NCBI RefSeq assembly: GCF_017254845.1
Contig: NZ_JAFKCU010000002.1
Location: 1,229,956 to 1,293,955, forward strand
Reading direction: 5' to 3'
DNA length: 64,000 nucleotides
Origin: Algoriphagus pacificus
Lineage (GTDB): Bacteria > Bacteroidota > Bacteroidia > Cytophagales > Cyclobacteriaceae
Under the pieces are notes generated by a model that made no database searches, was not told the DNA's origin, and worked only from the letters and a program-made list of their open reading frames with translations. Positions 51,965 through 55,312 of this stretch are shown in pieces (the stretch's first letter is position 1; each line of letters begins with the position of its first letter). A program made the position numbers and the translations under genes.

Positions 51965-52234
51965 TTAACCCTTGGTCAATAAGGCTTCATGAATAAAACA
52001 ATAAGCCCAATCTTCTCCTAGTTCGGCCGATTTGATTACCGGATGGTTCATCTTTCTGGCATGGGCACTGGCATGTTGGTTTGGTGAGGAATCGCAACAA
52101 AGGGTTACTCCGCATTCCTGACAGGTACGCAGATGCACCCATCGATCTCCTGTTTTTACACATTCCTCACATTCATAGGCTTTTGGATCCTTATTCTCAT
52201 AATTATCCAGATGTTCACAGCTTCCAAATCGCAT
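51965..52234 (-). CDS. Free-standing UBP-type zinc-finger protein
   Basis: The 89-residue protein is essentially one ZnF-UBP domain. Ligand pattern: Cys6-x-His8, Cys22-x-x-Cys25, Cys38-x-x-Cys41, Cys46/47, His54, His58 and His64. Trp32 in Arg-Trp-Val-His-Leu and Trp76-Ala-Tyr78-Cys match the aromatic positions of eukaryotic ZnF-UBP domains (USP5, HDAC6) that hold the free C-terminal Gly-Gly of ubiquitin. The Gly-Arg-Tyr of those proteins is not present. It is the last gene of a three-gene operon with the REC-flavoprotein fusion and the cNMP-domain kinase. In bacteria the ligand is unknown and might be a peptide C-terminus. Confidence 0.82.
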   Translation of the reverse strand: MRFGSCEHLDNYENKDPKAYECEECVKTGDRWVHLRTCQECGVTLCCDSSPNQHASAHARKMNHPVIKSAELGEDWAYCFIHEALLTKG

Positions 52235-52255
52235 AATTCTAAGGTGTTTATTCGG

Positions 52256-53917
52256 TTAAAATGAGGCTAAATATTCATGTACAAATTTGATTGCCATAGA
52301 ACCTTCACCCACTGCTGAGGCAACTCTGTTCATAGCCCCGGCACGAACGTCTCCTGCTGCAAAAATCCCAGGGATACAGGTTTCCAAAAGCAAAGGATCC
52401 CGTTTTAGTTTCCAGCTTTTTTTGAAATTAGGATAGTTGGCTAGGGAAGGACCTGTCTCTACAAAGCCACTTTTATCCTTGATCATATCTATTTTCAGCC
52501 AGTCTGTAACAGGCTTGGCACCAATGAAAATAAACAGGGCTGCAGCGGCTCTTGTCTCTTCTTTGTTGATTTTTGAGTTAACGAGAATAATCTCGGAAAG
52601 CCTACCATTTCCTTTTACTTCAGTGATTTCGGCTTGGCCTAACACTTCAATGTTTTCAGTAGAAGCTATTTGATCAATCAGATACTGAGACATGCTGCTG
52701 CTCAGATCAGGTTTTCTGATGACGATAAATACTTTTCTTGCAAATTTGGAAAGGTACATAGCCGCCTGACCTGCAGAATTCCCACCTCCAACAATATAGA
52801 TATCTTCATTTTCACAGGCTGTAGCCTCTGTTGTTGCTGCTCCATAATAAATTCCGGCACCAGTAAAATCGTCAATTCCTTTTGCAGGATGCTTTCTGTA
52901 ATCCACACCAGTAGCGATAATGATGGTTTTGGAATTGATGACTTCTCCATTTTTCAGGCTGATAATCTTATAATTATCTTTTACTTCAATATTCACCACC
53001 TCTTGAGGAGAGAGGAATTCAATCCCAAAGCGAGTAGCTTGAGTAATAGCCCTTCTGGAAAGCTCAGCGCCGCTTAGACCATTCGGGAAACCTAAGTAAT
53101 TTTCAATTCTGGAACTGGTCCCAGCCTGACCTCCAGGGGCTCTTTTTTCAATCAATAAAGTATTCAATCCTTCAGAGCCTCCATACACACTTGCTGCCAA
53201 TCCAGCTGGACCTGCCCCGATTACCGCCACATCATACATGGCTTGTTTGGCTTTGATGGACATCCCAGATTTTTCGCCTACCTCAGAGGTACTTGGATTG
53301 GTTAGATAACTTCCATCATCAAAGAAAACTGCAGGAAGATCCTTCATATCAATGCCATGCAACTCAAGCAATTCTTTTCCCTTTTCGCTGGTCTCGATAT
53401 TCATCCAATTATAAGGAACCAAGTTGCCGGACAGAAAATCTTTGATTTGATGGGATTTGGGAGACCATTGATGTCCAACTATCCTCAATCCTGTTGCTTC
53501 CGGAATATAGCTTCCTTTCCAGTCCTCCAACTGATCATGAAGGATGGGGAAAAGCTTTTCCTCTGGAGGATTCCAAGGTTTCAGAAGATAGTAATCCAAT
53601 TGTACATCATTGATGGCTTTAATGGCAGCTTCGATATCAGAATAGGCAGTGAGTAAAATCCTTTTGGCCTCTGGATAAAATGCTTTGGCTTTTTCTAGAA
53701 AAGTAACGCCAAGCATTTCAGGCATGCGTTGATCTGAGAGGAAAAGGGCAACTGTTTCCCCTTTCTTTTTGAATTCAGGCAAAGCTTCTAAAGCTTCCAA
53801 AGCAGATTGGGTCGCGATAATTCGATAATCTTGCCTAAACTCCTCCCTTACATCCCTTTGAACTGACTTCAGAACTGCTGGATCATCATCCAACAGAAAT
53901 ATGATGGGTTTTTTCAT
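52256..53917 (-). CDS. Response regulator fused to glutaredoxin-like and thioredoxin-reductase-like domains
   Basis: The 553-residue protein has three parts. Residues 1-125 are a receiver (Asp10-Asp11, phosphoacceptor Asp62 in Ser-Asp-Gln-Arg-Met-Pro, Thr90, Lys113). Residues 143-215 look like a glutaredoxin-like domain, but the CxxC position reads Ser152-Pro-Lys-Ser155. Residues 227-553 are a thioredoxin-reductase-like flavoprotein with Gly234-Ala-Gly-Pro-Ala-Gly239 (FAD), Gly-Gly-Gly-Asn-Ser-Ala-Gly (NAD(P)H) and Ala-Ala-Gly-Asp-Val-Arg (FAD), but its redox CxxC is replaced by Ala360-Ala-Thr-Thr363. It therefore should not reduce disulfides; it may sense or oxidise NAD(P)H under control of phosphorylation by the upstream kinase, whose gene ends 3 bases before it. 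Confidence 0.85.
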   Translation of the reverse strand: MKKPIIFLLDDDPAVLKSVQRDVREEFRQDYRIIATQSALEALEALPEFKKKGETVALFLSDQRMPEMLGVTFLEKAKAFYPEAKRILLTAYSDIEAAIKAINDVQLDYYLLKPWNPPEEKLFPILHDQLEDWKGSYIPEATGLRIVGHQWSPKSHQIKDFLSGNLVPYNWMNIETSEKGKELLELHGIDMKDLPAVFFDDGSYLTNPSTSEVGEKSGMSIKAKQAMYDVAVIGAGPAGLAASVYGGSEGLNTLLIEKRAPGGQAGTSSRIENYLGFPNGLSGAELSRRAITQATRFGIEFLSPQEVVNIEVKDNYKIISLKNGEVINSKTIIIATGVDYRKHPAKGIDDFTGAGIYYGAATTEATACENEDIYIVGGGNSAGQAAMYLSKFARKVFIVIRKPDLSSSMSQYLIDQIASTENIEVLGQAEITEVKGNGRLSEIILVNSKINKEETRAAAALFIFIGAKPVTDWLKIDMIKDKSGFVETGPSLANYPNFKKSWKLKRDPLLLETCIPGIFAAGDVRAGAMNRVASAVGEGSMAIKFVHEYLASF

Positions 53918-53920
53918 GAA

Positions 53921-55312
53921 TTATGCCTCAGTAATTGGTAAGCAAATGGTAAAAATTGTTTTGCCGGGTTCGGATTCTAGATAGACCGCTCCCTTGTGCT
54001 GTACTTTTATGATTTGCTGAACAAATTCAAGTCCCAGCCCGGTTCCTTTTCCGATACCTTTGGTGGTAAAGAAAGGATCAAAGATTTTATCCTGGATTTC
54101 CTTCGGGATTCCTGTTCCCGAATCTTCGATTTTAATATTCAAAAATTCTCCTTCTTTTTTGGTGGAAATAGTTAACTGTTTTTGTGATTGATCTTCCATG
54201 GCATCAATTGCATTGTCAACCAAATTGGTCCAAACCTGATTGAGTGGGCTCGCCAGAATGGATGCTTTTGGTAAATCTTCTGCATAGTTTTTTACAACTT
54301 TCACATCTTTCAGCTTATGATTGAGCATGGTCAATGTGTTATTCAGGCCAACATGAATATCCGTTGGGGTTTTCTCAGGAGCCTGATCCATATGGGTATA
54401 ACTCTTAATGGAGGAAACCAAATCGTTGATTCTCTGAGAGGCATCTTCGATCTCGGAAACAAGCTTTTCTGTTTTGAAAACTTGGTTCAGCCAACTGAAA
54501 ATCGCGTTTTGCTGAGAATCTGGAATGGCTTCGGAAAAGGATTCTAAATCATCCTCCGTAATCCCAAAATCCACAAAATTGGCAGATAGTTCATCCGCGT
54601 CTTCAATTCCATGATCATCTAACCAGTCCATCAATTCATCTTCCAGACTTGACTTTTCAATCAGATTCATCTCTTTGATATTCCCATCTATCTTTTGGAA
54701 AAGGGTGGTCGTGATCCTATCTATTTCTTCATCAGAGATCTTGATTTTGATGACATTCTTGAATTTATCAGGACTGATTTTCAAGAGTTTGGACAACTCC
54801 TTCGAACTCCTCACTACAGCTGCTGATGGATTATTTAGCTCATGCGCCAAACCCGCAGATAGTTTTCCAAGAGCCATCATTTTATCATCTTGCTGTTCTT
54901 GTTTAGTGAATTGGCGGATTCGGGTACTCATGGCATGGACAAATACCGTTGTCAATTCATGATGATCCCGGATCATTTCTTTAAAAAGTGCTTCATCCAA
55001 ACTGATCACAGAGGAGTCGCTAAGCGCTTCGGCATAAGCACGGGCAGATTGCGCTCTGGAATAGGGGAGCATTCCCGTTATCGTATATTTTTGAAGACGA
55101 CCTACATTTACAAATTGATTGTTTCTTTTTAATCGAAGGGTGAAATCACCTTCTAAAATGATGAAGAGGCGATTAATAGGATCTCCAGGTGAAAACATGG
55201 TTTCCCCTTGCTTGATTTCATGAAACTCGCTGTTGTTGATCAACCAGTTTAATTGCTCCTCAGGAACGTCCTTCAGTTCATCAATTTGCTGTAATGCCGC
55301 TAATGTATCCAT
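53921..55312 (-). CDS. Cyclic-nucleotide-binding-domain histidine kinase
   Basis: The 463-residue protein has an N-terminal cNMP/CRP-type domain (about 20-125, with Gly-Glu-Thr-Met-Phe-Ser-Pro-Gly-Asp and Ile-Leu-Glu-Gly-Asp-Phe), then HisKA with His157 in Leu-Ala-His-Glu-Leu-Asn-Asn-Pro, a helical spacer, and HATPase_c with Asp-Asn-Ala-Ile-Asp-Ala, Asp-Ser-Gly-Thr-Gly-Ile-Pro and Gly-Thr-Gly-Leu-Gly-Leu. There is no membrane segment, so it is a cytosolic kinase. It is the first gene of the operon and is expected to phosphorylate the receiver of the REC-flavoprotein fusion. The input may be a nucleotide or other ligand of the CRP-type fold. Confidence 0.86.
   Translation of the reverse strand: MDTLAALQQIDELKDVPEEQLNWLINNSEFHEIKQGETMFSPGDPINRLFIILEGDFTLRLKRNNQFVNVGRLQKYTITGMLPYSRAQSARAYAEALSDSSVISLDEALFKEMIRDHHELTTVFVHAMSTRIRQFTKQEQQDDKMMALGKLSAGLAHELNNPSAAVVRSSKELSKLLKISPDKFKNVIKIKISDEEIDRITTTLFQKIDGNIKEMNLIEKSSLEDELMDWLDDHGIEDADELSANFVDFGITEDDLESFSEAIPDSQQNAIFSWLNQVFKTEKLVSEIEDASQRINDLVSSIKSYTHMDQAPEKTPTDIHVGLNNTLTMLNHKLKDVKVVKNYAEDLPKASILASPLNQVWTNLVDNAIDAMEDQSQKQLTISTKKEGEFLNIKIEDSGTGIPKEIQDKIFDPFFTTKGIGKGTGLGLEFVQQIIKVQHKGAVYLESEPGKTIFTICLPITEA

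Follow-up and report, generated by a model that had tools for sequence, protein, structure and literature searches.

What could a soluble histidine kinase, a flavoprotein fused to a receiver domain and a small zinc finger protein of the zf-UBP family have to do with each other in one bacterial operon? The question is raised by a stretch of 64,000 nucleotides from Algoriphagus pacificus (contig NZ_JAFKCU010000002.1, positions 1,229,956 to 1,293,955; this whole stretch is called the window below), in which three minus-strand open reading frames (ORFs) follow each other in the order kinase, fusion, zf-UBP with gaps of 3 and 21 bases. We find that this operon is a real conserved unit, that its kinase and receiver are predicted to form a pair and that its flavoprotein has the fold of thioredoxin reductase without the cysteines of that enzyme. 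Tentatively, we suggest a module for thiol and electrophile stress in which phosphorylation would gate the flavoprotein. The parts are listed here with their positions in the window.

53921..55312, minus strand: gene 1, soluble histidine kinase with CRP-type N-terminal domain, 463 residues (ORF, Pfam, alignment)
54962..55219, minus strand: CRP-type domain of gene 1 (Pfam cNMP_binding), residues 32-117, with GMLPYSR at residues 80-86 replacing the usual pocket motif (Pfam, alignment)
54842..54844, minus strand: predicted phospho-acceptor His157 of gene 1, within AHELNNP (59 of 59 aligned rows)
54473..54805, minus strand: stretch of about 110 residues in gene 1 (about residues 170-280), from the H-box helix to the second helix of the dimerisation domain (boundaries estimated)
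53930..54247, minus strand: HATPase_c domain of gene 1, residues 356-461 (Pfam, 86 bits)
52256..53917, minus strand: gene 2, fusion of receiver, glutaredoxin-like and thioredoxin-reductase-like parts, 553 residues (ORF, Pfam, NCBIfam, PDB matches)
53555..53905, minus strand: receiver domain of gene 2, about residues 5-121, with the predicted phospho-acceptor Asp62 at 53732-53734 (Pfam; residues in 62 of 62 rows)
53270..53488, minus strand: glutaredoxin-like domain of gene 2, about residues 144-216, with Ser152 (SPKS) at the place of the catalytic Cys (TIGR02200 below cut-off, alignment, AlphaFold2)
52265..53239, minus strand: thioredoxin-reductase-like module of gene 2 for flavin adenine dinucleotide (FAD) and NAD(P)H, about residues 227-551, with GAATT (residues 359-363) at the CxxC place (Pfam, PDB, alignment)
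51965..52234, minus strand: gene 3, zf-UBP protein, 89 residues (ORF, Pfam, PDB match, alignment)

Conservation of the operon

The original prediction had described a minus-strand operon of three genes with these two gaps and these modules; the ORF coordinates reproduce the first statement and the Pfam matches agree with the second. It had also named conserved adjacency as a test, and this was borne out. In a phylum sample of 395 genomes, the fusion was present in 53 (E value 1e-100 or better, all N-terminal forms; three first-look candidates were scored per genome, so that less similar members and additional copies could have escaped). A zf-UBP protein (UBP below) was found above the cut-off in 36 genomes and below it in two more, and 33 genomes contain both (Fisher p 8.6e-31, kinship ignored). 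Of these 33 genomes, 23 have both genes on one strand and no more than 3 kb apart, where chance would give about 0.02, and 8 of the 10 families concerned show this linkage.

Plasmid records with fusion-like genes or zf-UBP came from Pseudomonadota, Actinomycetota, Cyanobacteriota, Deinococcota and Gemmatimonadota. A survey of plasmid UBP genes, with one record per genus and 23 genera taken from 60 listed of 87 records, revealed an intact flavoprotein relative within about 2 kb in 13 genera (11 on the same strand, two on the opposite one). Two more genera contain a broken flavoprotein remnant (Hymenobacter) and an antiporter ending in zf-UBP (Deinococcus). The complete set is encoded on plasmids of Nocardia farcinica and Tsukamurella in the order fusion-kinase-UBP, and its receiver and CRP-type domains score higher than their Pfam cut-offs; on plasmids of Nostoc, Caballeronia and Deinococcus aetherius the kinase adjoins the fusion with no UBP gene on the record. 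In the Nocardia and Tsukamurella kinases (L148 4470-5963 and L152 4481-5965; L and G numbers are our handles for loci and genomes) the CRP-type domain scores 29.4 and 28.0 bits, barely above 27.5. On the Hymenobacter plasmid (L133 7298-8098) the pieces of the broken flavoprotein gene lie directly behind an intact zf-UBP gene. A zf-UBP gene adjoins a DUF5996 gene on a cyanobacterial (L136 6998-8253) and an actinobacterial plasmid (L155 4913-6321), possibly a second recurrent neighbour.

Besides the receiver form found here, the fusion occurs with a CRP-type domain in front or with no N-terminal domain. A UBP gene accompanies 11 of 15 CRP-domain and two of five no-domain forms, shares that are inflated since the plasmid loci were picked for carrying UBP. 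The distribution is patchy: none of 35 other genomes of the same genus has the receiver form at an E value of 1e-60, and two same-genus genomes (G019 and G021) have the CRP-domain form.

Predicted pairing of kinase and receiver

Pfam identified a cNMP_binding domain (48.4 bits) and a HATPase_c domain (86 bits) in the first gene. Together with the H-box histidine, His157, which is the same in all 59 rows, the latter marks the protein as a sensor histidine kinase. The second gene encodes a receiver (Response_reg, 51.8 bits) in front of a Pyr_redox_2 domain (121.7 bits), and the response-regulator residues D10, D11, D62, T90 and K113 are invariant in 62 receiver-type rows; the earlier choice of Asp62 as phospho-acceptor position is thus confirmed. 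On the same strand and at no more than 4.5 kb, a kinase gene accompanies 57 of 62 receiver-type loci (52 at no more than 500 bases) and none of 20 fusions without a receiver. L128, L056, L074, L075 and L100 are counted here as receiver type, since their receiver residues align though regular expressions had mislabelled them. The receiver-type loci outside the kinase count are L003 (at a contig start), L069 (kinase on the opposite strand), L078, L090 and L102. As the kinase is located only beside receiver-bearing fusions and the catalytic residues are intact in both partners, the pairing is strongly implied, and signalling from the kinase to the receiver of the fusion is a well supported prediction from sequence.

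The usual cyclic-nucleotide phosphate-binding cassette is GE...R(S/T)A. The CRP-type domain of the kinase does not contain this cassette and has a conserved GxLP[FY]SR instead, with G in 58, L in 56, P in 55, S in 54 and R in 53 of 59 rows. Without the usual pocket motif, the domain may have a ligand other than a cyclic nucleotide; of the original label "cNMP-domain kinase" the CRP-type domain stands and the cyclic-nucleotide cassette does not. In the 15 CRP-domain fusions GE or GD is mostly kept and the following Arg-Ser/Thr-Ala is not, as judged by eye. A search with PADLOC, which covers anti-phage defence, gave no match for the fusion or the zf-UBP protein; the N-terminal region of the kinase matches TIR-effector models weakly (best PycTIR, 33.1 bits).

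The HisKA match of the kinase (21.4 bits, below the cut-off of 26.9) covers the H-box alone and ends at residue 167, and matches to kinase profiles and PDB chains start near residue 280. From the sequence, about 110 residues seem to be inserted inside the dimerisation domain, after its H-box helix and before its second one. A conserved ED.l.dW is present in this stretch (54473-54805, about residues 170-280).

The tree of the shared glutaredoxin- and thioredoxin-reductase-like part (80 rows, FastTree, midpoint root) has three clades, namely the CRP-domain (support 0.997), the no-domain (1.0) and the receiver forms (0.995). Genes for zf-UBP and for an antiporter are found in loci of all three clades and the kinase in the receiver clade only. 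Thus, the input seems to have been swapped during evolution while the core partners stayed.

A flavoprotein without thiols

Alignment of 82 intact relatives (the broken L133 piece was excluded) revealed that the CxxC of thioredoxin reductase is absent from all of them. The place of the catalytic Cys in the glutaredoxin-like domain is taken by Ser in 77, His in two and Ala, Asp and Asn in one each, and position 368 is the sole column with Cys in at least 40% of the rows (53 of 82; another 20 have Phe). With both cysteine sites lost, ordinary thioredoxin-reductase chemistry is impossible for the fusion. In the flow proposed originally, from ligand to kinase to receiver to a "reductase-like" flavoprotein, the kinase-receiver step is therefore retained and the nature of the output is not. 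Some relatives are publicly annotated as "thioredoxin-disulfide reductase", which is probably wrong, since all aligned members of the family are without the cysteines that this activity needs.

The nucleotide-binding motifs have been kept: G234, G236, P237 and G239 of the FAD motif (GxGxxG type) and G377, N380, S381 and A382 of the NAD(P) motif (GxGxxA type) are present in 73 of 73 rows, and the protein is predicted to bind a flavin. It is nearer to thioredoxin reductases (4gcm, 167.8 bits) than to ferredoxin-NADP reductases (3lzw, 61.8 bits). In the curated thioredoxin reductase model TIGR01292 it scores 228.3 bits, below the cut-off of 343.45. A separate, ordinary TrxB is encoded in the window genome (405.2 bits, above the cut-off), with CAVC aligned to the CxxC place of the fusion. 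Another thioredoxin-reductase-like protein of this genome (L139, C12:122483-123340) has no CxxC at the aligned place and may belong with the ferredoxin-NADP reductases. A match of the fusion to the mycoredoxin/glutaredoxin model TIGR02200 covers residues 146-216 (E 1.7e-8) and, at 34.7 bits, falls short of the cut-off of 89.5. AlphaFold2 modelling of the fusion (4 sequences) is of low confidence, with a mean predicted local distance difference test (pLDDT) of 57.1 and a predicted template modelling score of 0.39; residues 144-216 are folded as beta-alpha-beta-alpha-beta-beta-alpha, with ten-residue pLDDT means of 55-86 over 141-220.

The zf-UBP protein

The third protein is a zf-UBP member (35.6 bits, cut-off 22.7) and gives the single zf-UBP match of the window genome. 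Its closest solved chain is PDB 2ida (E 5.8e-22), with which it shares CxxC, WvHLRxC, CCDxS and HP motifs, and its conserved Trp residues align with Trp residues of HDAC6. In HDAC6, the Arg of CGRY holds the C-terminal carboxylate. The aligned position in 50 zf-UBP rows is Ser in 42, Gln in five, Asn, Glu and Asp in one each and Arg in none, which leaves the earlier view that the zinc finger reads a C-terminus unsupported. A GG ending is missing from all fusion (73), kinase (60), antiporter (28) and UBP (49) proteins compared, and ubiquitin-like signalling was set aside on this ground. In a ubiquitin search of the genome, the control genomes themselves were without a match.

Neighbouring genes in relatives

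The genes that recur next to the module in relatives are the best clue to its function. A KefB/C-like antiporter of the CPA2 family, counted up to 3 kb away on the strand of the fusion, is encoded in 20 of 62 receiver-type, two of 15 CRP-domain and one of five no-domain loci. It is called KefB/C-like only, since the NCBIfam scores are below their cut-offs (in L089, KefC 134 bits against 752 and KefB 115.7 against 804); Na_H_Exchanger and TrkA_N are above theirs. A zf-UBP domain forms the C-terminus of the antiporter in L081, L084, L086, L107 and L129, and a glutaredoxin domain does so in L096 (25.6 bits) and, with 19.6 bits and thus short of the cut-off of 22.9, in L087. In three genomes with UBP and without the fusion (G099, G140, G340) the antiporter adjoins the UBP or is fused to it. 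The same-genus genomes G019 and G021 have a row of genes for an antiporter, a CPKS glutaredoxin, the CRP-domain form of the fusion and zf-UBP.

A gene of the VOC/glyoxalase superfamily was found in 16 searched loci, of which 15 belong to family f42 and one to f62, and also in L156, and a phospholipase/carboxylesterase gene in 14 searched loci, all of family f42. Both are located near the antiporter in every case but L109, where the search gave UBP alone. Presumably, they resemble the quinone-resistance genes MhqO and MhqD of Bacillus. The Tsukamurella set is followed by a gene for the mycothiol-dependent S-(hydroxymethyl)mycothiol dehydrogenase. Furthermore, plasmid pDK2 of Rhodococcus (L130 223-8948) and plasmid p1 of Streptomyces (L131 64-8988) carry dnaK-grpE-dnaJ-cbpM-clpB followed by trxA, zf-UBP and the thiol-less flavoprotein with CRP-type domain, and in G177 just 3 bases separate the no-domain form from the end of a preceding ClpB-like gene (identified by eye). 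Antiporter, glutaredoxin, VOC-dioxygenase, carboxylesterase and chaperone neighbours taken together point to thiol and electrophile stress. In L089 (3371-7252) and similar loci the VOC and carboxylesterase genes precede the antiporter and a DsbA-like CPYS protein follows it; the closest NCBIfam model of the latter is the thioredoxin-like (seleno)lipoprotein family, with a score below the cut-off.

The surroundings of the operon in the window are of a different kind. The nearest flanking genes are all on the plus strand, with a VanZ-like gene, an MFS transporter and an acetyltransferase on one side and a glucosamine-isomerase-type gene on the other. Eight of the nine flanking genes shown are singletons among 63 compared loci, and the cluster of the ninth recurs only in L097 among the matches listed. 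A Bacteroidetes-type promoter pattern has two matches in the window against a chance mean of 4.33, and neither is located upstream of the operon.

Proposed function and alternatives

How might these parts work together? The reading that we favour, though with rather less than even confidence, is a thiol/electrophile-stress module in which a phosphorylation-gated, thiol-less flavoprotein has a KefF-like role. The soluble kinase with its CRP-type sensor domain would autophosphorylate on His157 and pass the phosphate to Asp62 of the fusion, and this phosphorylation would switch the FAD- and NAD(P)H-binding look-alike of AhpF and thioredoxin reductase. The flavoprotein would mainly be a redox-state-dependent regulatory subunit, perhaps with a side activity on quinone-like acceptors, and would act on an effector much as KefF acts on the K+/H+ antiporter KefC; this role is proposed by analogy with the Kef system (PMC11150392). 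The zf-UBP protein would be the docking or adaptor partner that joins the flavoprotein to the effector. In other genomes the effector may be the KefB/C-like antiporter, elsewhere perhaps the products of chaperone and thioredoxin genes, and in the window genome it would have to be encoded elsewhere. It is also conceivable, if decidedly uncertain, that the relatives form a widespread stress-signalling system not described so far, in which a core of thiol-less flavoprotein and zf-UBP adaptor has interchangeable inputs (a fused CRP-type domain, or kinase and receiver) and outputs (a KefB/C-like cation/proton antiporter, or a chaperone/disaggregase set), so that ion efflux and protein repair would be gated jointly by a second signal and by the state of NAD(P)H and flavin.

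Several observations weigh against the KefF-like module. No antiporter adjoins the operon in the window, and a search of the window genome with one antiporter of the relatives yielded a distant CPA2 relative (23-31% identity) and nothing closer. Counting the same strand up to 3 kb away, an antiporter is missing from 42 and zf-UBP from 38 of the 62 receiver-type loci. In 10 of the 33 genomes with both proteins the UBP is located away from the fusion, and the neighbours of those UBP genes that were retrieved vary; in eight of the 23 plasmid genera neither flavoprotein nor antiporter is nearby. The dioxygenase and carboxylesterase neighbours are nearly confined to family f42 (15 of 16 and 14 of 14 loci). 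The fusion has a different flavoprotein fold from KefF and is, we assume, not its homologue. The parts, the intact sites of kinase and receiver, the thiol loss and the linkage are read from sequence; flavin binding, phosphotransfer, gating, contacts between the proteins, the adaptor role of zf-UBP and the stress signal are inferred.

The phosphorylated fusion might instead be an enzyme in its own right, either an oxidase or a reductase that uses NAD(P)H to reduce small electrophiles, quinones or carriers of the flavodoxin kind, with the product or the consumption of NAD(P)H as output and antiporter and UBP as co-regulated stress genes. The conserved FAD and NAD(P)-type motifs and the VOC-dioxygenase and carboxylesterase neighbours would suit such an enzyme, and other CxxC-less proteins of the thioredoxin-reductase fold are ferredoxin/flavodoxin-NADP reductases (PMC8564101 and PMC10294844). 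We consider it somewhat less likely than the KefF-like module: it leaves unexplained why zf-UBP accompanies each of the three input forms or is joined to the antiporter, and by sequence the fusion resembles thioredoxin reductases more closely than it does the known reductases without CxxC. It might also be possible that the flavin passes electrons directly to cysteines of a partner such as the CPKS glutaredoxin, the DsbA-like CPYS protein or TrxA. Cys-bearing partners of the thioredoxin fold do exist in some operons; most receiver-type operons, that of the window included, have none adjoining, CxxC is missing from every fusion, and even the richest column has Cys in 53 of 82 rows, which makes a thiol reductase in trans quite improbable.

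The other two alternatives concern the role of the zf-UBP protein and whether the proteins interact at all. Along the lines of the pathway proposed originally, the zinc finger would read free protein C-termini in a ubiquitin-like manner and report tagged proteins. The zf-UBP fold and the Trp residues shared with HDAC6 would agree with this, but the missing CGRY Arg and the lack of a GG ending in any compared protein render it very improbable. Three general stress genes might also share promoters without physical interaction, as UBP and antiporter are often missing or located elsewhere and UBP adjoins other genes in some genomes. Such loose co-transcription, while improbable, would have to account for linkage across several phyla with altered gene order, altered inputs and direct gene fusions, and for a kinase whose distribution over the examined loci follows that of the receiver exactly.

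Comparison with known systems

The fusion shares the two-domain FAD/NAD(P)H core of low-molecular-weight thioredoxin reductase and AhpF (4gcm, E 3.1e-48; AhpF 1hyu, E 3.8e-30). AhpF also carries an N-terminal extension, there with redox cysteines (PMC8945050), whereas the fusion has neither the CxxC of the core nor the catalytic Cys of the glutaredoxin-like domain and has a receiver or CRP-type domain in front. The combination of domains itself has a precedent: response regulators predicted to contain a thioredoxin reductase domain were reported from metagenomic archaeal samples (PMC5847659). Compared by that description only, the fusion differs in being thiol-less and part of a conserved operon with kinase and zf-UBP.

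The bacterial zf-UBP protein of PDB 2ida, the closest solved chain with the same CCDxS signature, is named only "hypothetical protein" in the PDB listing, and our literature search turned up no role for bacterial zf-UBP proteins. The same search, with most subscription papers outside its scope, revealed among the papers listed no bacterial operon joining zf-UBP to a thioredoxin-reductase-like protein, a kinase or an antiporter, and no experiment on this system, which does not establish absence in print. The module provides bacterial zf-UBP proteins with concrete partners and a testable setting, namely electrophile/thiol stress and cation efflux. It also represents a natural signalling experiment, in which one output protein takes its input from a fused CRP-type domain in some relatives and from a kinase-receiver pair in others.

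The electrophile-gated K+ efflux system KefC/KefF is a comparison of how the module might work, and the fusion is not a member of it; the window genome has no linked antiporter. Relatives of the module share with KefC/KefF a KefB/C-like CPA2 antiporter together with an operon-encoded NAD(P)H-type flavoprotein, and in one family of relatives detoxification-type genes alongside. In contrast to KefC/KefF, the flavoprotein here is a fusion of the thioredoxin-reductase fold with its own predicted phospho-switch, and zf-UBP and glutaredoxin modules have been added.

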